From: Actinomycetes bacterium
Lineage (GTDB): Bacteria; Actinomycetota; Acidimicrobiia; Acidimicrobiales; RAAP-2
Reading direction: 5' to 3'
Length of the DNA: 33,588 nt
Assembly: GCA_021782915.1 (NCBI GenBank)
Contig: JAJXUK010000025.1
Location: 1-33,588, forward strand
Shown: piece by piece, positions 23,146 to 31,788 of the stretch
How positions within the stretch are numbered: the stretch's first letter is position 1
Layout of the letters: each line of letters opens with the position of its first letter
Position numbers and translations under genes: made by a program
Notes under the pieces: generated by a model
Seen by the model: only the letters and a program-made list of their open reading frames with translations
The model's database searches: none
What the model was told of the DNA's origin: nothing

Positions 23146-23460
23146 CTAGGAATTCTCGTCTGATTTGTGGTCGCGATCATGAATCTGGCGCAGATACTCG
23201 TTGTACTCGGCCCGTGCGGCGTCCTCGCGCTCGTCCTCGCGGCGGCCTCGAGTGGGCGTCGCGCGGTCGTCATGTAGCAGGCGATGCCAAACAAATACGG
23301 CGTAACCAGCGAGGATGGGCCACAGCACGACGTAGGCCCACGAGAGCGTGTTGCCGGATCGCGCGCGCGCGAGCTCGATGAGGAAGGCCGAGACGCAGAT
23401 GAGTTCCGCCATCGCCAGGCCGGCGTGGATTCCAAGAATCCTCTTAGCGGATCGCTGCAT
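23146..23460 (-). CDS. Two-TM membrane protein, paralogue of the protein at 30482-30868
   Basis: A 104-residue protein of unknown function. Two hydrophobic segments (about residues 8-31 and 42-60) are followed by a hydrophilic tail rich in Arg, Asp and Glu. The core FLIELARARSGNTLSWAYVV, LWPILAGYAVFVWHRLLHDD shares ELxRAxxGNxLSWAYV, WPxLA and AVxxW with the second protein near ctaG. It is divergent from the cupredoxin-ctaC operon with a 78-base shared promoter gap. ATG at 23458-23460 is preceded by GAGG and by TATTGT, so it is nearly leaderless. I recall proteins with this motif in other actinobacteria but no assigned role. Confidence 0.8.
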   Translation of the reverse strand: MQRSAKRILGIHAGLAMAELICVSAFLIELARARSGNTLSWAYVVLWPILAGYAVFVWHRLLHDDRATPTRGRREDEREDAARAEYNEYLRQIHDRDHKSDENS

Positions 23461-23538: not shown

Positions 23539-24225
23539 ATGTCAAAGGGAGGGAGACTGGTCGTCAGTCTCGGACTCTTCCTGGTCGCCGCCGCGCTTGT
23601 GGTATGGGCAGTCGCCGTGTACCTCACGCCGGGCACGCCAGGGGGAGAACTGAACTTCACGAACACCCAGGCCGCGGGCCAGCCGGTGAACCTGACCGTG
23701 CAGACGGTCGGCTCGATCGGCTTCGGGCCGCACCCCACCTGGGTGTCGTACATGACGAAGGACCCCGCGTCCGGCCAATGGGTGCAGGACAACACCTGGG
23801 TGCTTCCGGCGCACACCGAGGTCCACATGACGATCTACCAGTTTGACTCTGGTAGCCCGCTGCGCAACCAGGTGTGGGGCCAGGTCGAGGGCACCCAGGG
23901 CAACTCCGCCACGATCAACGGCAAGACGGTGTCGGTGGTGAACTCCAACGTCGGAGCGGGCGTGGGGCACACCTTCGCGATTCCGTCGCTGAACCTCATC
24001 GTGCCCCTGCCGGGAGTCACCGGCAACAACATCTGCGGCGCGGGGCCGTGCCTGGCCAACAAGTGGCCCCACAACACGGTGAGCTTCAGCTTCAAGACGC
24101 CGGGGGCGGGCAACTACAACTGGCAGTGCTTCGTCCCGTGCGGTCTGGGCTACCTGTTTGGCAACGGAGGCGGAATGTCAACTGAGAACTACATGGGCGG
24201 CTTCTTGGACGTGGTGGCTCGATAA
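23539..24225 (+). CDS. Membrane-anchored cupredoxin-like protein with partial CuA-type ligands
   Basis: A 228-residue protein with an N-terminal membrane anchor (about residues 7-28) and an extracytoplasmic beta-rich domain. It ends GNYNWQCFVPCGLGYLFGNG followed by GGMSTENYMGGFLDV. H144 (GHTFAIP), C197, C201 and M213 resemble copper ligands of CuA or type 1 cupredoxins. The second CuA histidine is missing: Y205 stands where C+4 His is expected. Another pair, C166 and C171, could make a disulfide. It lies directly before ctaC with a TAATG overlap, so it is expressed with the oxidase. It may be an electron-donor or accessory subunit; subunit II is encoded separately. The start has a good AGGAGAGG site. 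Confidence 0.82.
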   Translation: MSKGGRLVVSLGLFLVAAALVVWAVAVYLTPGTPGGELNFTNTQAAGQPVNLTVQTVGSIGFGPHPTWVSYMTKDPASGQWVQDNTWVLPAHTEVHMTIYQFDSGSPLRNQVWGQVEGTQGNSATINGKTVSVVNSNVGAGVGHTFAIPSLNLIVPLPGVTGNNICGAGPCLANKWPHNTVSFSFKTPGAGNYNWQCFVPCGLGYLFGNGGGMSTENYMGGFLDVVAR

Positions 24226-25199
24226 TGGCGAAGAACAACAGCAACTACGGCAGCGACCTGCGCAAGATCCTCTGGATCTGGGCCGTCATCTCCATCATCG
24301 TCGACGTCCTGTTCTGGTTCCTCGTCGGCCCGCACATGGCACCGGGCCGACTCACGGAGACGGCCAAGAACGACCAGATGGACCTCAACATCCTGATGAT
24401 CTGCGCGCTGCCGGTGATCGTGGGCGTGTGGACGTACTGGGGATGGTCCCTGACCCACTGGGGCGCCAAGCAGAACGGCCCCGAGCCCATAGGTGGTCCG
24501 GCCGCGCGTAGCAACCTGAAGGTGCAGACGTGGTGGATCGCGTCGTCCTCGGTGCTCGTGCTCGCACTGGCCATCTTCGGCACCCTGGCCCTCATCATGG
24601 ACCACGGCTCCGGCGGCGGCGAGGGCCCGAACCCGGTGTGGATGCCCGATGGGCCCGTCACCCAGGTCGAGACGGCCGCGCTCAACGGCACGGCCACCTG
24701 GTCGCCGGGCAAGATTCTGCCGGTCCAGGTGATCGGTCAGCAGTGGAAGTTCACCTACCGCTACCCGACCTTCGGCGGCTTCGAGACCCAGCAGTTGATT
24801 CTGCCGGCCAACACCACCATCGTGTTCAACGTCACCTCGCTGGACGTCATTCACAGTTTCTGGGCGTACCAGCTGGGCGTGAAGGCGGACGCCAACCCCG
24901 GTGTGAACGACGTGGCCTTCACCGAGACCAAGGGCACCGGCAACTTCGAGGTTCGGTGCTCCGAGCTCTGCGGCATCTGGCACGGCGCGATGTACAACTC
25001 GGGTGCGGTGGTCTCCCAGAGCACCTTCCAGCAGTGGGCCACGAGCACGCAGGCGGCCACGGCGGCCAACACCGCGCTGCTGCCGAAGTTCGCCTGGACG
25101 TACACGCCGGACGCCAACGGCGCCGCGGGCGGCTACTACCCGGACGGCAACCTCACCCCCTACAGCTCCGTGCAGGTCTACGGGGCCAAGCAGTCGTGA
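24225..25199 (+). CDS. ctaC: Cytochrome c oxidase subunit II
   Basis: A 324-residue subunit with three hydrophobic segments (about residues 15-35, 54-74 and 103-125; canonical subunit II has two) and a C-terminal cupredoxin domain. The CuA ligands are complete: H210 in SLDVIHSFW, and C245, E247, C249, H253 and M256 in CSELCGIWHGAM. GQQWKFTYRYP holds the electron-entry aromatic region. There is no fused cytochrome c domain (no CxxCH). The long C-terminal tail after the CuA site is Ala/Gly/Tyr-rich. The start overlaps the cupredoxin-like gene; ctaD follows after a short spacer that contains a 17-codon frame. Confidence 0.95.
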   Translation: MAKNNSNYGSDLRKILWIWAVISIIVDVLFWFLVGPHMAPGRLTETAKNDQMDLNILMICALPVIVGVWTYWGWSLTHWGAKQNGPEPIGGPAARSNLKVQTWWIASSSVLVLALAIFGTLALIMDHGSGGGEGPNPVWMPDGPVTQVETAALNGTATWSPGKILPVQVIGQQWKFTYRYPTFGGFETQQLILPANTTIVFNVTSLDVIHSFWAYQLGVKADANPGVNDVAFTETKGTGNFEVRCSELCGIWHGAMYNSGAVVSQSTFQQWATSTQAATAANTALLPKFAWTYTPDANGAAGGYYPDGNLTPYSSVQVYGAKQS

Positions 25200-25204
25200 G
25201 AGCG

Positions 25205-25258
25205 ATGAGCGTCTCTGAGATGAACGAACTGATGAAAGAAACGGAGAACGGGCGATGA
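25205..25258 (+). CDS. Possible 17-residue micro-ORF between ctaC and ctaD
   Basis: ATG at 25205 opens a frame of 17 codons (MSVSEMNELMKETENGR) whose TGA overlaps the ctaD ATG as ATGA, the same coupling used by proven gene pairs here. A weak GAGAG precedes it. It could be a leader peptide coupling ctaD translation, a tiny protein, or a chance frame. Confidence 0.3.
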   Translation: MSVSEMNELMKETENGR

Positions 25259-27213
25259 CAATTAGCGCCGAACGACCGACGGAAGTCGCCGCCAGCGTGG
25301 CGCCGCCTGCGTCGAAGACTCCCTGGACTCAGCGTCCTGGGTGGATGAGTCAGCACCTGGGAACGGCCATGGTGGCCGCTCTGCTGGGCTACTTGCTGGG
25401 CCACTGGTTCGGCAACTACGTGTCCGCCAACTACCCCTACATCGCCAACAGTGGCCAGAACAACATTGCGAACACTCTGGGCCTGACGGGGATGGTGCTG
25501 GGCTGGCTGCTGGGCATCGGGGCGCTGAACTACCCGCTGGCCAAGCTGGTGGGCAAGGACGCCCCCGCCGAGTCCGAGGTGGAGGGCTGGAGCAAGTACT
25601 TCCGCTACAGCACGAACCACAAGGTGGTCGGCCTGCAGTACGTGGTGGGCGTGATCCTGTTCATGTTCACCGGCGGCCTGCTGGCCATGGCCATCCGCAC
25701 CGAGCTGCTGAACCCGACCACTCACGTGTTCGGGCCGGGCACCTACGCCGAGATCGTCTCCGAACACGGAACGGTCATGATGATGATGGCGACATCGATC
25801 ATCGTGGGTCCGCTGGGCAACTACCTGGTGCCGCTGATGATCGGCTCGCGCCGCATGGCGTTCCCGCGCATCGAGGCCTTCAGCTTCTGGGTCTTCGTCG
25901 CGGGCTACATGGTCATCTTCTCGGCCCTGCCCTACGGTGGCTTCACCACGGGATGGACGGGCTACGCGCCGCTGCAGACCCAGAACGGCCCGGGGATGAT
26001 CTCCTACCTGCTGGGCTTCGCCGTGATCGGCCTGGGCATGATGGCGGCGGGCTTTAACATCGCGGTCACCATCATCAACTATCGAGCCCCGGGAATGACC
26101 TGGAGCCGTGTGCCGATCTTCGTATGGTCGATGCTGGCGACGGCCTCGCTGCTGACCCTGGCCACTCCCGTGCTGTTCTCAGCGGGTCTGTTCGGCTTGC
26201 TGGACAAGACGGTGCAGACGGCGTTCTACGTCGGAGAGCACGGTGGCAGCTCGTATCTATGGGAGAACCTGTTCTGGTTCTTCGGACACCCCGAGGTGTA
26301 CATCATGGCCCTGCCGGGCTTCGGCATCGCCGCAGAGCTTCTCCCGGTCTTCACCCGCAAACCGCTGTTCGCCTACAAGGTGGCGGCCTCGGGCATGATT
26401 GGCGTCGCGCTGCTGTCGTTCTTCGTCTGGCAGCACCACCTCTTCCAGAGCGGCATCAACCCGGACATGCGCCCGCTGTTCATGTTGACCACGGAGATGA
26501 TCTCGCTGCCGACGGGCTTTATCTATCTGGTGGGCCTGGGCACGATGTACCGCGCCAAGATCCGCTGGGAGCTGCCGATGCTCTTCGTGATGGCGCTGTT
26601 CTTCAACTTCCTGATCGGAGGCGTGACGGGCGTGTTCCTCTCGGACGTGCCGGTGAACGTGACGGTGCACGGCGGCTTCTTCGTGCTCTCGCACTTCCAC
26701 TACACGATCATGGGCGGCTTGCTCTTCGCCTTCATGGCCGGCCTGTACTACTGGCTGCCGAAGATGACCGGGCGCATGATGAACAAGTCCATCGGCAAGG
26801 TCCACTTCTGGATGATGTTCGTGTTCTTCAACCTGACCTTCTTCCCGATGTTCATCATCGGCCTGCTCGGTCAGCCGCGCCGCGTGTTCACCTACGCGTC
26901 GAACCTGCAGGGCCTGAACGACTTCGCGTCGATCTCGGCCTTCCTGCTGGGCACGTCGTTCCTCGTCTTTGCCTGGAACCTGGTCTACTCACTGTGGATC
27001 AACCCGGTGAAGGCCCCGGCGAACCCGTGGGACTCGCTGGGCCTGGAGTGGCAGACGGCCTCGCCCGTGCCGGCTCACAACTTCGACCGGATCCCGGTGA
27101 TCCTGACCGACCCGTACCACTACAGCGAGCCCGGTGCACCCGCGCTGGCCGACTTCGGTGGTGGCGCGGGAGCCAGCACCAGCGCAGCCTCAACCGAGAG
27201 CAACCCGGCGTAG
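25255..27213 (+). CDS. ctaD: Cytochrome c oxidase subunit I (heme-copper oxidase, A-type-like)
   Basis: A 652-residue catalytic subunit. The core begins at about residue 117 (RYSTNHKVVGLQY), after an N-terminal extension with two extra hydrophobic segments. Ligands are H171 and H482 for the low-spin heme, H480 for the high-spin heme, and H345, H394 and H395 for CuB, with Y349 as the cross-linking tyrosine. E347 of GHPEVY is present. By eye, the usual Asp of the D-channel entrance (PDMAFPR) is R200, the K-channel lysine (IPTGVK) is I423 and the Mg-site Asp after H472 is G473. The ATG follows a GGAG. The C-terminal tail is Gly/Ala/Ser-rich. Confidence 0.95.
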   Translation: MTISAERPTEVAASVAPPASKTPWTQRPGWMSQHLGTAMVAALLGYLLGHWFGNYVSANYPYIANSGQNNIANTLGLTGMVLGWLLGIGALNYPLAKLVGKDAPAESEVEGWSKYFRYSTNHKVVGLQYVVGVILFMFTGGLLAMAIRTELLNPTTHVFGPGTYAEIVSEHGTVMMMMATSIIVGPLGNYLVPLMIGSRRMAFPRIEAFSFWVFVAGYMVIFSALPYGGFTTGWTGYAPLQTQNGPGMISYLLGFAVIGLGMMAAGFNIAVTIINYRAPGMTWSRVPIFVWSMLATASLLTLATPVLFSAGLFGLLDKTVQTAFYVGEHGGSSYLWENLFWFFGHPEVYIMALPGFGIAAELLPVFTRKPLFAYKVAASGMIGVALLSFFVWQHHLFQSGINPDMRPLFMLTTEMISLPTGFIYLVGLGTMYRAKIRWELPMLFVMALFFNFLIGGVTGVFLSDVPVNVTVHGGFFVLSHFHYTIMGGLLFAFMAGLYYWLPKMTGRMMNKSIGKVHFWMMFVFFNLTFFPMFIIGLLGQPRRVFTYASNLQGLNDFASISAFLLGTSFLVFAWNLVYSLWINPVKAPANPWDSLGLEWQTASPVPAHNFDRIPVILTDPYHYSEPGAPALADFGGGAGASTSAASTESNPA

Positions 27214-27228
27214 GCGAGGAGAGGACTA

Positions 27229-27882
27229 ATGACAGACATCTTCAAGGGATCAAAGGTTCCCAACGCGACACCGGAGGAGCGCGAGTTCGAGTTGCGCGCT
27301 CACCTGGGATCCATCTGGACGGGAGGTCGCCTCTTCATCGGCATGTACACGTTCATGCTGGCGTCGCTGGCGTTCGCCTACTTCTACCTGCGCTCGTCGA
27401 ACAACGCCCAGCTGTGGCGGCCGAACCACGTGACCGCCCCGACGTACTACGGCTTCTTCATCTACGGCTTCATGGTCTTGACGGCAATCCTGGCCGTGTA
27501 CGGCCAGTGGCGCCTGCGCAAAGGAGAGGTTGCGGACTGGCAGGTGGCCGGCTGGACGGGCGTGGTCTCGGGCCTGCTCGCGCTGTTCCTGCAGATCTGG
27601 GAGTTCACGCGGGTGCCGTTCTACCCGGGCTCTAGCGGCTACGCCTCGACGTTCATCGGTTTCGCGGTGATGAACATCGCAACAATCGTCGTGGGGACCT
27701 ACTGGCTGGAGACCACGTTGGCTCGCGGGATGCGCCTGCGCAGGGAGTACGGCCCCGGTGCGGAGCTGTCCTCGCACCCAGCGGCGCAGTCCTTCCGTGC
27801 CAACGTCTCCTCGATGACGTACAACTGGGGCTTCATCGCCCTGGGCGCCACGCTGTTCCTGGTGCTGTTCTACCTGATGTAG
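27229..27882 (+). CDS. ctaE: Cytochrome c oxidase subunit III
   Basis: A 217-residue membrane protein with about five helices, the usual number for bacterial subunit III of this length. Typical features are LGSIWTGGRLFIGMYTFMLA with AYFYLRSS near the N-terminus, LLALFLQIWEFTRVPF in the middle, and a final YNWGFIALGATLFLVLFYLM. It stabilises subunit I and is not catalytic. The ATG has a very good GAGGAGAGG site 15 bases after ctaD. A 24-base perfect palindrome lies seven bases after its stop. Confidence 0.9.
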   Translation: MTDIFKGSKVPNATPEEREFELRAHLGSIWTGGRLFIGMYTFMLASLAFAYFYLRSSNNAQLWRPNHVTAPTYYGFFIYGFMVLTAILAVYGQWRLRKGEVADWQVAGWTGVVSGLLALFLQIWEFTRVPFYPGSSGYASTFIGFAVMNIATIVVGTYWLETTLARGMRLRREYGPGAELSSHPAAQSFRANVSSMTYNWGFIALGATLFLVLFYLM

Positions 27883-27955: not shown

Positions 27956-28069
27956 ATGCTAGGAGCAGACGGGTACATCGGCGCGCAGGTCCAGACAATG
28001 GTGGTCCTGCTCGGCGTATTGTTCGGCGTCATTATCTGGGGGTTCTTCCAGCGTCGTCCGTCGAAGTGA
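27956..28069 (+). CDS. 37-residue single-TM peptide in the oxidase operon
   Basis: The frame encodes MLGADGYIGAQVQTMVVLLG followed by VLFGVIIWGFFQRRPSK: one transmembrane helix of about 18 residues and a basic tail, giving a likely N-out/C-in topology. GAGG at 27946-27949 is six bases before the ATG, and the TGA overlaps the GTG of the CtaG-like gene (GTGA). The coupling, composition and position argue for a real gene. It could be a small structural subunit of the oxidase, comparable in size to CcoQ-, CtaF- or CydX-type peptides, but I see no sequence match to those. Confidence 0.72.
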   Translation: MLGADGYIGAQVQTMVVLLGVLFGVIIWGFFQRRPSK

Positions 28070-28881
28070 CGGCGACCGGGGGCCCGCGTGACTCCGCTCG
28101 TGCGGAGAGGACGCGTCAGGTCCTGAGCGTGGTGGGCCTCGCGCTGTTGGTGGGGGTGCTGGTGCCGCCGCTGGGCAGCTGGGCCCGTCGCTACGAGTTC
28201 GTCCAGTCCATTCAGTTCTGTGTTCTGGCGTACGCCGTGCCGGCGCTGCTGGCTACGGGAGCGCCGTGGAAGTGGCTCAGGCTCGCTTCGGGCGAGCCCC
28301 TGGGCATTGGTGAGGACGGGGCTGTCTCATGGAGCTCGCCGGCGCGCTTCATGGACCGCTACGCACTGCGCGCGAGTCGGCGCGCCGGTCACACGCATAT
28401 CTTCACCTGGGGTCTGGTGTCTCTCGCGGTCGTGATCTTCTGGCGCGCCAGCCCCGTCGTTGACGCGCTCGTGCGTCACGGGTGGCTGGTGCTGATCGAG
28501 GCGTTGACCCTGGTGGCCAGTGCGACACCGGTGTGGCTGGCGATTGTCGAGTCGCCCCCGGTGCGCCCGTCGACGACGAGGCCCTTTCGCATCGGCGTGG
28601 CCGCGGTGAGCATGTGGACGATCTGGATCGTGGCGTATCTGAACGGGATGTCGCAGGTGTCCTGGTACAGCGCGTTCCACCACGTGCCTGGTGGGCTGTC
28701 GCACGTTGCGGACCAGGAGTTCTCCGCGGGCGTGATGTGGGCGATCTCCGCCGCGGTCTTCTTGCCGGTGGTCTTTTGGAACCTGATCCACTGGCTGCAG
28801 TCAGAAGAGGACCCGAACGACGAACTCGGTCGGCTGCTGCGCGAGAGCCGTATTCGCGGCACCCACGACGCGTCCGCCTAG
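28066..28881 (+). CDS. CtaG-like membrane protein lacking the conserved histidines
   Basis: A 271-residue membrane protein paralogous to the canonical CtaG at 30865-31788. Shared blocks include PLGSWARRYEFVQSIQFCVL with AVPALLATGAPW, against PIDFWASEYFYIHMLEHILL with ATPISIVVGAPW. Others are VESPPVRP against LDSPPIRP, and VSWYSAFHHVPGG followed by ADQEFSAGVMW against VSWYPVYSHIPGV followed by ADQQIGAAILW. Where CtaG has H76 and H80, this protein has Q47 and F51, and the later WHVP and LMH histidines are also replaced. CtaG helps deliver copper to the CuB site; this copy probably cannot bind copper the same way. Expression is coupled to the 37-residue peptide. Confidence 0.82.
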   Translation: MTATGGPRDSARAERTRQVLSVVGLALLVGVLVPPLGSWARRYEFVQSIQFCVLAYAVPALLATGAPWKWLRLASGEPLGIGEDGAVSWSSPARFMDRYALRASRRAGHTHIFTWGLVSLAVVIFWRASPVVDALVRHGWLVLIEALTLVASATPVWLAIVESPPVRPSTTRPFRIGVAAVSMWTIWIVAYLNGMSQVSWYSAFHHVPGGLSHVADQEFSAGVMWAISAAVFLPVVFWNLIHWLQSEEDPNDELGRLLRESRIRGTHDASA

Positions 28882-28914: not shown

Positions 28915-29576
28915 ACGTTGGGCAGTATGGCGAGCTTGGGGTGCTTGAGCTTGCCGCCCAGCAGCGAGTTCGCGCGGGACCAATCCGCCAAGGCGCTGAG
29001 GCGTTCTGAGTTGAGTGCGTTCGTGCGCTCGTGCAAGACCTTTAGCTTCGCGGCGTCCCCCGGGTGCTGGAAGAGATACATGATCGCCTGAATCGCCGCG
29101 AGCGCGTCGGAGGTCACCCAGGTGACGATGACGGTGTGCATGTCGTCGATGTACTTGCCGGCCTTGGTGTCCAGAGCCTGGAAGTTGTTCGTCAGGTCGT
29201 AGATGGATCCGCTCGTGAAGGAGCAGGCCGTCTGGTCATCGTTGAGCTGCTTGGGCAGAAGAGCCCGATCGGCGGCGGTGATCTGTCCCTTGAGCTGCAT
29301 CTGGTAGAAGCTGTACACCTCTTTTACGGCGTAGTTGCACGGTGCGAGATCGGTGTTGATCTGGTCGATTGAGGCGTTCTGGGCCGAAACGTCTTCAGCG
29401 GGTGTGATGTGGTGTGGCAGATCGCTCAGCACCGACACGCCGATCATGACGGCAACGACCACCGTGACCAGGAGCCACGGGCGGCGGTACCACACGGCCT
29501 TGTTGGCGACGAGGGACGAGGCCGGCATGGCGCCCGGCGCGTAGTCCACTGAGTGCTCCTCAGGCTGCTCTGTCAC
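28908..29576 (-). CDS. Membrane-anchored extracytoplasmic protein of unknown function, coupled to SCO
   Basis: A 222-residue protein with a cytoplasmic tail of about 32 residues, one transmembrane helix (about residues 33-50) and a mostly helical outer domain. Two cysteines (in LAPCNYAVKEVY and DQTACSFTSGS) could form a disulfide. A DxxP-like HHITPAED region follows the membrane. I recognise no family. The start is GTG 29576 in a GTGA overlap with the SCO gene, so the two are co-translated and probably function together in oxidase copper loading or in a related extracytoplasmic process. It converges with the CtaG-like gene. Confidence 0.75.
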   Translation of the reverse strand: MTEQPEEHSVDYAPGAMPASSLVANKAVWYRRPWLLVTVVVAVMIGVSVLSDLPHHITPAEDVSAQNASIDQINTDLAPCNYAVKEVYSFYQMQLKGQITAADRALLPKQLNDDQTACSFTSGSIYDLTNNFQALDTKAGKYIDDMHTVIVTWVTSDALAAIQAIMYLFQHPGDAAKLKVLHERTNALNSERLSALADWSRANSLLGGKLKHPKLAILPNVA

Positions 29577-30409
29577 CGGCTCAGACTAATGGTCACGCGC
29601 GCCAGGGCGGAGGCGAAATGGGCCATCTCTGCCTGATCGAGGCGGAAGCGCCCATCGGAGGTCTGATTGGCGAAGGGGGTCACCCTCATGACCAGGTGTC
29701 CGGTCGTGTCGATGAGGTACAGCGCGTTGGTGTGTGTGACCAGCGACGACGTGCGTGCCGCGCTCACCGTAATGCCGTAGTGCGTCCAGATGGGGATCAG
29801 CCGCCCCAGGGGTCCGTTCAGAAACACGACGTTGCGATACCCGCTGAGCCCGGGATCGGCCAGCGCTCTTTGGGACGCGCTCGGAGCGGTGAGGTGAGGG
29901 TTGGTGTTGATGATCGCAACCTGAACCGGTGCGGCTCGTGATCCTAAGTCGGCGATCGTCTGGCGCAGCTCGGCGCCGAGGACGGGACAGATGTCCTGGC
30001 AGGCGGCGTCGTAGAAGGTGAGGATGATCACGTGTCCACGCTGGGACGTGAGCGACCAGGCCGCTCCGGTGCTGGTGGTCAGGGACACCGCGGGAGCGAG
30101 CGTCCGGCGCAGCGACTTGATCCCCAGGATCGAGTTGGGCCTGGCTGAGGGCAGCGTTCCGGCGACCACCGGCGTCGTGATCGGTGGCGAGCTCGTTGTG
30201 CTGACGGGGGCTGGCGTGTGGCGTCCAGCCAGGATCTCGACGATGGACCCACTGATGCCGATCAGGAATAAGGCGATGAGAAAGCGCGTGACCGTTCTCT
30301 TGGAGTAGGTGGCCCGCCCGCCCACCATCGTTCCCGCGAAGGCGCGAGCTCGCTCGTCGTCACTGAGTGCGCCCGCGGGGGCCTGGTCGTTCTCCTGGGG
30401 GGTGCTCAC
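29573..30409 (-). CDS. SCO1/SenC-family copper chaperone
   Basis: A 278-residue membrane-anchored thioredoxin-fold protein that helps load copper into CuA of oxidase subunit II. After a cytoplasmic tail come a transmembrane helix (about residues 42-62), a Pro/Thr/Ser-rich linker and the SCO domain. The metal ligands are C137 and C141 in YDAACQDICPVLGAEL (CxxxCP) and H226 in LVTHTNALYLIDTTG. I chose GTG at 30407-30409 because the frame upstream covers the divergent gene's coding region and lacks SCO-like content, and because TAGAGT lies just upstream. It overlaps the anchored unknown gene downstream at GTGA. Confidence 0.9.
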   Translation of the reverse strand: MSTPQENDQAPAGALSDDERARAFAGTMVGGRATYSKRTVTRFLIALFLIGISGSIVEILAGRHTPAPVSTTSSPPITTPVVAGTLPSARPNSILGIKSLRRTLAPAVSLTTSTGAAWSLTSQRGHVIILTFYDAACQDICPVLGAELRQTIADLGSRAAPVQVAIINTNPHLTAPSASQRALADPGLSGYRNVVFLNGPLGRLIPIWTHYGITVSAARTSSLVTHTNALYLIDTTGHLVMRVTPFANQTSDGRFRLDQAEMAHFASALARVTISLSR

Positions 30410-30419
30410 GGGTACGACA

Positions 30420-30425
30420 ACTCTA
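30420..30425 (-). promoter_or_regulatory. -10 box (TAGAGT) of the SCO gene
   Basis: TAGAGT on the minus strand ends 11 bases before GTG 30409, leaving a leader of only about four bases. It lies back to back with TAGGGT at 30470-30475. Confidence 0.42.
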
Positions 30426-30469
30426 CTGAGCCCGGCGGGCGAGACCGGGTCACGCCGAGGCCGAGCCGG

Positions 30470-30475
30470 TAGGGT
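30470..30475 (+). promoter_or_regulatory. -10 box (TAGGGT), leaderless promoter of the second two-TM gene
   Basis: TAGGGT ends seven bases before GTG 30482. Confidence 0.55.
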
Positions 30476-30481
30476 TGACGC

Positions 30482-30868
30482 GTGGAGGGCCCTGGAGAGG
30501 CAACGCGCGAGGTGCGCGAGCGCCTGCGGGGTTCGGCGGCCGTGAAGGCTCACGTCACCCTGGCCCTCGGCGTGGCCCTGTGTGCGGTGGCCTTCTGGTT
30601 CGAGCTGGGTCGAGCTCTGGGCGGCAATGCCCTGAGTTGGGCCTACGTGTTCGAGTGGCCGCTGCTCGCGGTCTTTGCCGTGTACATGTGGTGGAAGGTG
30701 ATCCACCCCGGTGCCGCGGTGAAGTCAGCGAGACCTCGCGCCCAGAAGCCTGCGGTGGCGCCGGAGTTCGCCGGCATGCTCGCAGCCTGGCAGCAGCACC
30801 AGACCGAGCTCGCGGCTGAGCGCGAGCGAGAGGAGCGCGACGCGGAGGAGGAGGAGGAGGAGTCGTGA
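30482..30868 (+). CDS. Two-TM membrane protein, paralogue of the protein at 23146-23460
   Basis: A 128-residue protein with two hydrophobic segments (about residues 24-44 and 52-72) and a long charged tail rich in Glu and Arg. Its core FWFELGRALGGNALSWAYVF and EWPLLAVFAVYMWWKVIH aligns with the upstream paralogue. The C-terminal run of glutamates is encoded by GAG repeats that also act as the ribosome-binding region of ctaG. Start GTG 30482 follows TAGGGT by seven bases. The TGA stop overlaps the ctaG GTG, so it is co-translated with that assembly factor. Function unknown; a role around the oxidase is inferred from position. Confidence 0.82.
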   Translation: MEGPGEATREVRERLRGSAAVKAHVTLALGVALCAVAFWFELGRALGGNALSWAYVFEWPLLAVFAVYMWWKVIHPGAAVKSARPRAQKPAVAPEFAGMLAAWQQHQTELAAEREREERDAEEEEEES

Positions 30869-31788
30869 ACCTGTTGGTGGAGCACTGGAAGTTCGATCCC
30901 ATGCTCGTGGTGATCGCGGCCACGGTGGTGGCCCACGAGATCGGGCTCTCCCGTCTGGCGCAGCACTCGCGTCCCGAGCGCACGCGCATGCGCCGTCGGC
31001 GCTCCTACGTCTTCTACGTCGGGCTGGGCACGCTCGTGCTCGCGATCGCCTCGCCGATCGACTTTTGGGCGTCGGAGTACTTCTACATCCACATGCTCGA
31101 GCACATCCTGCTCTCCTTCGCGACGCCGATCTCCATCGTCGTCGGTGCTCCCTGGCTGCCGTTGATGTTCTTCCTTCCGGTGAAGGCGCGCCGGCGAGTC
31201 GGACGATTCTTCTACCTCAGTGCGGGCGCTCGCGGAATTCGTGCGCTCGGGCGCTTCATCCGAAGTCCCTGGGTCGCCGTGGTGCTGTTCAACATGGCCA
31301 TGCTCGCCTGGCACGTGCCCGCGTTGTTTGACCTCGCGGAGCGTAACGAGTTCGTGCACGTCTGGCTGATGCACGGCAGTTTCGTTCTCACGGGTGTTCT
31401 CTTCTGGCTCCAGATCCTCGACTCGCCGCCCATTCGCCCCGCTCACGGTGCGGTCTGGAAGGCCGCCACGATTCTGGGCACGAATGCGGTCATGACGATT
31501 CTGGCCATGTCGATGAGCGTGCTCACCGCGGTCAGCTGGTACCCGGTGTACAGCCACATCCCGGGCGTGACCCTCTCGCCCTTTGCCGATCAGCAGATCG
31601 GTGCGGCGATCCTGTGGATCTGCGGCGACTTCTGGGCGGTGCCGGTACTGCTGCGAGTTCTGCGCCAAGCGGCGGCCAACGAGGGCTCGCTCTCCAACGT
31701 CTTCGACCGGCTCATCAAGCGCTCGATCCACGTTCGACCGGAGGCCCTGCGACGCCTCGGTGTAGACGGAGAGGCGGTCGCCGACTAG
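30865..31788 (+). CDS. ctaG: Cytochrome c oxidase assembly factor CtaG (Caa3_CtaG)
   Basis: A 307-residue membrane protein with about seven helices. It carries the family's conserved region ASPIDFWASEYFYIHMLEHI with H76 and H80, then SFATPISIVVGAPWLPL, MLAWHVPALFD, HVWLMHGSFVLTGVLFWLQI, and the final YPVYSHIPGVTLSPFADQQI. CtaG helps metallate or assemble the oxidase, with histidines as likely copper ligands. The start is GTG 30865 in a GTGA overlap with the two-TM gene and after several GAG/GGA repeats. The C-terminal 50 residues are hydrophilic. Confidence 0.92.
   Translation: MNLLVEHWKFDPMLVVIAATVVAHEIGLSRLAQHSRPERTRMRRRRSYVFYVGLGTLVLAIASPIDFWASEYFYIHMLEHILLSFATPISIVVGAPWLPLMFFLPVKARRRVGRFFYLSAGARGIRALGRFIRSPWVAVVLFNMAMLAWHVPALFDLAERNEFVHVWLMHGSFVLTGVLFWLQILDSPPIRPAHGAVWKAATILGTNAVMTILAMSMSVLTAVSWYPVYSHIPGVTLSPFADQQIGAAILWICGDFWAVPVLLRVLRQAAANEGSLSNVFDRLIKRSIHVRPEALRRLGVDGEAVAD

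Follow-up and report, generated by a model that had tools for sequence, protein, structure and literature searches.

The window, a stretch of 33,588 nucleotides of actinobacterial DNA, carries directly 5' of the oxidase gene ctaC a gene, cup, that we read with moderate confidence as encoding a CuA-derived, membrane-tethered cupredoxin with a Met-for-His copper site, which would serve as a dedicated redox partner feeding the CuA site of CtaC. The host is related to acid-loving iron oxidizers whose electron path from iron to oxygen is not known, hence the interest of Cup: a conserved redox-type protein encoded with one of two oxidases, in Acidimicrobium ferrooxidans, is a concrete candidate. A natural CuA-like site with Met for His, if true, would moreover give copper-site chemistry a natural case it has so far lacked. 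No paper on the cup gene was found in the open-licence literature, searched as listings and abstract openings; membrane-bound cupredoxins ('Cup') appear in an oxidase scheme of iron oxidizers that cites a 2020 paper (PMC8239418, in excerpt), so an earlier notice of Cup in the cited 2020 paper is possible.

The cup gene and its setting

The oxidase cluster of the window comprises the following features, given with the evidence for each.

23539-24225, + strand: cup, predicted membrane-anchored CuA-like cupredoxin, 228 amino acids (open reading frame, model, family alignments, profile match to CtaC)
23545-23625, + strand: N-terminal membrane helix of Cup, residues 3-29 (helix in the AF2 model)
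24225-25199, + strand: ctaC, oxidase subunit II with a complete CuA motif (Pfam COX2, E 3e-16; C-x3-C-x3-H-x2-M)
25255-27213, + strand: ctaD, oxidase subunit I (Pfam COX1, E 2.6e-127)
27229-27882, + strand: divergent ctaE-like subunit III (position and sequence; weak NCBIfam match, E 0.25)
28066-28881, + strand: ctaG-like assembly factor (Pfam Caa3_CtaG, E 4e-22)
29573-30706, - strand: Sco-like copper assembly protein (Pfam SCO1-SenC, E 4.6e-8)
30865-31788, + strand: second ctaG-like assembly factor (Pfam Caa3_CtaG, E 1.7e-41)

The cup gene starts with ATG, with a purine-rich tract 5' of it, and its TAA overlaps the ATG of ctaC, the final base of the stop codon being the first base of the start codon (24225). 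Basic residues N-terminal of the helix suggest that the domain lies outside. Shikimate-pathway genes, elongation factor P and nusB are found 5' of cup in the window, and its own genome holds one copy (one profile match). Pfam and NCBIfam searches with the Cup protein of the window gave no family at E up to 1, and a Pfam search of the subunit III gene (27229-27882) gave no COX3 match. Relatives of cup at E 0.001 are present in at least 53 of 395 genomes of the class, the window's genome included (the locus counts below leave out the places on G289:C50, G326:C20, G394:C11, G064 and G292); together with dN/dS values of 0.13-0.14 against the three nearest named relatives, and of 0.06-0.27 across all 15 pairs compared, this rules out a chance open reading frame. 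An earlier note on this DNA, made from the sequence alone, had correctly placed the reading frame and residues H144, C197, C201, Y205 and M213 (codons starting at 23968, 24127, 24139, 24151 and 24175), as well as a standard CuA site in the next gene, where the complete motif of CtaC reads CSELCGIWHGAM.

A conserved candidate copper site

The residues of interest in Cup lie at these positions.

23968-23970, + strand: H144, candidate copper ligand in strand 142-148 (invariant in 70/70; aligned with the CuA His of CtaC)
24034-24072, + strand: C166, C171 and H178, an extra conserved set (28/28 of the group most like the window protein, 0/6 of the others aligned)
24127-24141, + strand: C197-x3-C201, a CuA-spaced Cys pair (invariant in 70/70; aligned with the CuA cysteines)
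24175-24195, + strand: M213-x5-M219 (invariant in 70/70; short-loop comparison with CtaC)

H144, C197, C201, M213 and M219 are invariant in the window protein and 33 relatives (34/34), and the same five are invariant in all 70 sequences after the addition of 36 remote paralogues, which were picked by profile and are thereby biased towards keepers of conserved columns. Seven columns are invariant in the 70 sequences in all, the other two being P200 and G221, and the motif is kept in all 38 cup open reading frames from the wider stretches around the paralogues, many of which also belong to the 70. Conservation of H144, C197, C201 and M213 among homologues, which the earlier note had named as a check on its reading, is thus borne out. 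The spacings C-x3-C and M-x5-M are fixed (70/70), the His-Cys distance is 34-59 residues (exactly 34 in two sequences), and between the second Cys and the first Met there are 3 residues in one sequence, 4 in five and 10-12 in 64. Random decay of a CuA site is ruled out by the five residues invariant in 70/70. The full CuA motif is kept in 52 of 53 ctaC open reading frames, with some loci counted twice and the single miss cut by a contig end.

The loop of the window protein is C-x3-C-x11-M-x5-M and holds no His. Four residues past the second Cys, where CuA has its second His, none of the 70 sequences has His (column 205 is Y, F, R, W, T, Q, G or a gap), and Y205 of the window protein is not conserved. 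The short-loop paralogues read H-x34/39-C-x3-C-x3/4-M-x5-M; set against the CuA motif Hx34Cx3Cx3Hx2M (PMC6189053, in excerpt), this spacing puts the first Met at, or one residue after, the lost His, and the second Met in the place of the CuA Met. With M219 at the CuA Met place and M213 at or next to the missing His, the site is not simply an incomplete CuA. That description, with a displaced Met, was the one offered in the earlier note: the CuA His is indeed absent, but the CuA-like Met is M219, which the note did not list, and the site is better read as a conserved set of five residues with M213 at or near the position of the lost His.

The extra set C166, C171 and H178, found in 28/28 of the group most like the window protein, could form a disulphide or a second metal site, or supply a further ligand. 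H178 may be such a ligand in the group of 28, because in the strand order of the model it stands directly before the strand preceding the one that leads into C197.

Fold and kinship

Cup is a cupredoxin by prediction and by profile. The AF2 model, built with 70 sequences including that of the window (mean pLDDT 90.4, pTM 0.83), has one helix (3-29) followed by a beta sandwich, with loop 202-207 alone below pLDDT 50. Foldseek returned rusticyanin as its top match (E 1.2e-5), and ba3 oxidase subunit II came eighth (E 1e-4), with low TM-scores of 0.32-0.37 by query length in the rows quoted (0.33-0.35 for rusticyanin and ba3 subunit II); the structure of a His143Met rusticyanin mutant (2cal) is among the rows. 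VIA-align placed the N-terminal domain of a three-domain nitrite reductase best (Z 10.6, 110 residues, rmsd 2.2), and also matched nitrosocyanin (Z 9.6, 96 residues, rmsd 2.0), rusticyanin (Z 9.1, 116 residues, rmsd 3.0), the copper chaperone CupA (Z 8.7, 98 residues), nitrous oxide reductases (Z 8.5-8.7) and CyoA with an engineered CuA (Z 8.6). For a short-loop paralogue the first structural match was nitrosocyanin (Z 14.1 over 97 residues at rmsd 1.8), level with a Cupredoxin_1 entry of Z 13.6. AcoP is not among the rows listed by Foldseek or VIA-align for Cup, an absence that carries no weight. A profile search of the PDB gave auracyanin A (E 2.1e-4), nitrite reductases and CuA subunits (E 0.02). 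The cupredoxin fold that the earlier note had proposed, to be checked by structure prediction and Foldseek, is therefore the one predicted. The best structural matches include the one-copper proteins rusticyanin and nitrosocyanin, and on the modelled structure alone one-copper cupredoxins rank as high as CuA domains.

At the level of sequence, the comparisons point to a CuA ancestry of Cup. In a profile-profile comparison with 30 CtaC CuA domains of the same loci (E 6.5e-6, probability 84.8), H144, C197 and C201 align on the CuA His, Cys and Cys, and a six-sequence short-loop subset (E 7.1e-7, probability 91.9) also places the equivalent of M219 on the CuA Met. In separate scans of each of the 70 members, with E up to 1, CoxB was matched by 25 (best 1.8e-7) and three nitrous oxide reductase (NosZ) models by 12, 9 and 8; rusticyanin, nitrosocyanin, plastocyanin and copper nitrite reductase were matched by five members each, more weakly (best 0.0019). 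Pfam Cupredoxin_1 was matched by 14/70 and COX2 by 10/70. Cup shares with the CuA domains of subunit II and nitrous oxide reductase the cupredoxin fold and the order His, C-x3-C, Met, but lacks the His four residues after the second Cys (Y205 in the window) and has M213 and a longer loop instead; unlike subunit II, it is a separate protein with one helix.

Comparison with other copper proteins

Sco copper chaperones have a thioredoxin fold with C-x3-C and a distant His. Membership of Cup in this family is ruled out by its cupredoxin model and by the lack of a SCO1-SenC match. Nitrosocyanin is similar in fold, with Z 9.6 to the window protein and 14.1 to the short-loop paralogue. It is a red copper protein that has a Glu ligand and a single Cys, and it is not known to be tied to oxidases. 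Rusticyanin, the top Foldseek match, has one Cys and a C-terminal His ligand (PMC10654088, in excerpt) and is soluble. Membership there is ruled out, the curated cut-off of TIGR03095 not being reached and 5/70 members matching at E up to 1 (best 0.0019). PmoD resembles Cup in being a membrane-anchored cupredoxin with a CuA-like site of non-standard ligands that include Met, but its site, with motif Cx7MxHxnC, arises in a homodimer and uses a different region of the fold (PMC6189053, in excerpt), and PmoD is tied to methane and ammonia monooxygenases.

The likeness is to AcoP of Acidithiobacillus ferrooxidans in the membrane helix and in the placing of the gene with oxidase genes: AcoP is a single cupredoxin domain with an N-terminal membrane helix, encoded with an oxidase in an acidophile, and it is purified together with that oxidase, whose optimal activity is attributed to it, and receives electrons via cytochrome c4 (PMC4059628 and PMC5982212, both in excerpt). 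The AcoP ligands are H85 and C159-x6-H166-x4-M171, with one Cys (PMC4059628, in excerpt), while the Cup loop has no His. AcoP membership is ruled out on this ligand pattern, H85 with C-x6-H-x4-M, which Cup does not have. The profile of Cup matches AcoP chains in the PDB at E 0.07-0.11 over a short stretch. As the sites differ, Cup would work like AcoP without being AcoP.

Linkage of cup to one CtaC lineage

In 34 of 34 loci, the window's included and drawn from part of the 53 genomes, cup is followed by ctaC, and in 33 of these by ctaD, locus L027 ending within ctaC. A CtaC search of 390 genomes of the class, compared by eye with the places of cup, shows that the best 24 matches listed (E 5e-54 or better) all adjoin cup on the same strand, as do 16 of the next 18 listed (E 1.2e-30 to 5.4e-22), the exceptions being G018 and, broken by a contig end, a case in G165. 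A tree of 54 CtaC domains, 42 cup-linked and 12 not, requires one label change, with support 94/96; the tree program warned that long branches meet. No cup was found in 14 further stretches, 12 of them with ctaC, which were chosen since an earlier search had shown no cup there. Eleven of the 12 cup-less CtaC are second oxidases in genomes that also have a cup-linked one. A factor needed by every CuA in the cell is ruled out, as these 12 CtaC have a normal CuA and no cup nearby. The survey of acidimicrobial ctaC loci that the earlier note had suggested therefore ties cup strictly to one ctaC lineage (the 24 closest matches listed; tree support 94/96), and this strict linkage supports well the part of its proposal that made Cup a partner or subunit of the oxidase.

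A search of the phylum found cup in 14 of 396 genomes; three of these lie outside the class and carry cup-ctaC-ctaD, one of them twice. A single contig scan gave four loci, one labelled Acidobacteria, and an alignment search of viral contigs gave no conserved stretch. The cluster of L034, in a metagenome-assembled genome labelled Acidobacteria, has a cup of 65% identity, and in the CtaC tree it groups within the actinobacterial part; it is mislabelled, misbinned or transferred. Three genomes, G344 (L013, L045), G334 (L015, L040) and G303 (L011, L036), have two cup-linked oxidases each, one per CtaC subgroup and each with its own cup.

Two oxidases and cytochrome c

Cytochrome c domains, counted by families PF00034 and PF13442, and COX2 proteins were compared in 30 genomes with cup-linked oxidases, the window's included. 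Two PF00034 domains are present in 29 of the 30, in one open reading frame in 27 genomes and in two in G352 and G184, with none in G307; PF13442 agrees with PF00034 in 29/30. Two or more COX2 proteins are found in 29/30 genomes and one in G376. A cup-less COX2 lies 3-12 kb from the cytochrome c gene in 13/30 genomes, a cup-linked COX2 in 0/30, and in the remaining genomes cytochrome c and COX2 are on different contigs. In the family to which the window belongs, cytochrome c and the second ctaC are mostly on separate contigs, so that gene placement there gives no sign of separate donors. By gene placement, in Acidimicrobium ferrooxidans the oxidase away from cytochrome c has its own cupredoxin. 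The curated cut-off for rusticyanin (TIGR03095) was passed in none of the 30 genomes, with weaker matches in four. Cupredoxin_1 (PF13473) gave matches in 19/30, 14 of them above cut-off, so Cup is not always the sole candidate carrier; the window genome and G014 (Acidimicrobium ferrooxidans) have neither a rusticyanin nor a Cupredoxin_1 match. For Ferrimicrobium, a published note mentions several c-type cytochromes, each with at most two haem motifs, and names WP_052566320.1 as the oxidase that iron reduces (PMC8350767, in excerpt).

Paralogues beside iron-sulphur/NrfD modules

Of 16 loci fetched in which cup paralogues, often as tandem copies, occur apart from ctaC, 13 have a gene for an NrfD membrane protein next to them on the same strand (L097-L105, L108, L110, L111 and L043; in L110 NrfD is one open reading frame away), in nearly all with a 4Fe-4S dicluster protein between them. 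NrfD was confirmed by Pfam in 11 loci; in L100 and L101 it was found by BLAST, with Fer4 by Pfam, and in L097 no Fer4 open reading frame was picked up. Of the other three loci, L107 is cut off by its place at a contig end, and L106 and L109 have no Fer4 or NrfD neighbour. Subunits of the NrfD type work with quinones (PMC8076601, in excerpt), and the word copper is absent from the excerpt of that paper. By analogy, cupredoxins may have the place in the Fer4/NrfD quinone module that c-type cytochromes have in alternative complex III. This setting favours electron carriage over copper delivery, since an electron-carrier role explains both the ctaC and the NrfD contexts, and copper delivery fails for the latter.

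Proposed role and alternatives

In the mechanism we favour, Cup would sit in the membrane beside CtaC with its domain outside, and H144, C197, C201, M213 and M219 would form the candidate copper site, with a Met at or near the place of the second His. It would take electrons from a high-potential donor, for which ferrous iron, directly or via another carrier, and the bcc complex are candidates, and would pass them to the normal CuA of CtaC in the downstream aa3 oxidase, the second of the cell, in a role like that of cytochrome c, or of AcoP in Acidithiobacillus, elsewhere. The Met ligands would escape the protonation that an exposed His may undergo at low pH. Cup thus probably carries electrons into the oxidase; copper binding, the number of copper ions (one or two), the direction of electron flow and the donor are points that we infer. 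More tentatively, and with some doubt, the site may be a natural two-copper CuA-type centre with Met for the second His, and Cup a copper stand-in for cytochrome c in acidophilic actinobacteria. One copy would then feed the second aa3 oxidase, perhaps closing the gap between ferrous iron and oxygen in Acidimicrobium and related bacteria, and tandem copies would serve iron-sulphur/NrfD quinone complexes where others use c-type cytochromes.

Cup could also be an electron carrier with a single-copper, type 1-like site made of H144, C197 and one or both Met, a possibility of real weight, short of an even chance, that is a functional sub-case of the favoured mechanism and overlaps with it in probability. 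Rusticyanin as the top Foldseek match and the nitrosocyanin matches (Z 9.6, and first for the short-loop paralogue at Z 14.1) fit such a site, and other ligand loops in a CuA scaffold give one-copper sites (PMC7480511, in excerpt), but both cysteines are invariant at CuA spacing (70/70) and the profiles link mainly to CuA proteins. It is rather unlikely that Cup is a Cu(I)-binding cupredoxin chaperone that delivers or stores copper for the CuA of the same CtaC through soft Cys, Met and His ligands. The ligand set is conserved, linkage to ctaC is strict with ctaG and Sco nearby in the window, and CupA is among the structural matches (Z 8.7, 98 residues); yet Sco and two ctaG genes are already present in the window, the 12 other CtaC with a normal CuA have no cup nearby, and the paralogues at iron-sulphur/NrfD modules (13/16 loci) have no oxidase copper to load. 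A metal-free structural subunit, with a C197-C201 disulphide and methionines packing the core, is harder still to credit: the case for copper in Cup is one of sequence and model, and the oxidase-like group already has another conserved Cys pair in C166 and C171, but His, Cys, Cys, Met and Met in CuA order are nearly the only invariants of a divergent family, and a disulphide would not require H144, M213 and M219 to be invariant.

Other genes near cup

Two small membrane proteins, alike by eye, flank the oxidase cluster of the window (23146-23460, - strand, and 30482-30868, + strand); neither matched a Pfam family above its cut-off, and relatives of either adjoin cup-linked oxidases in several loci. 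In several NrfD clusters, the gene 3' of NrfD encodes a protein of about 200 residues that has a membrane helix at its C terminus and no Pfam family, with examples in the five loci below.

L101:7466-8068, L108:8268-8864, L110:1099-1725, L111:3130-3663 and L104:11514-12161: protein of about 200 residues following NrfD

Membrane proteins that are DoxX-like by eye, one of which was searched against Pfam without a match, are also found near NrfD clusters (L108:8890-9924, L097:4259-5806 and L102:9501-11156), and that of L102 continues in frame into a cup domain, for a total of 552 residues.
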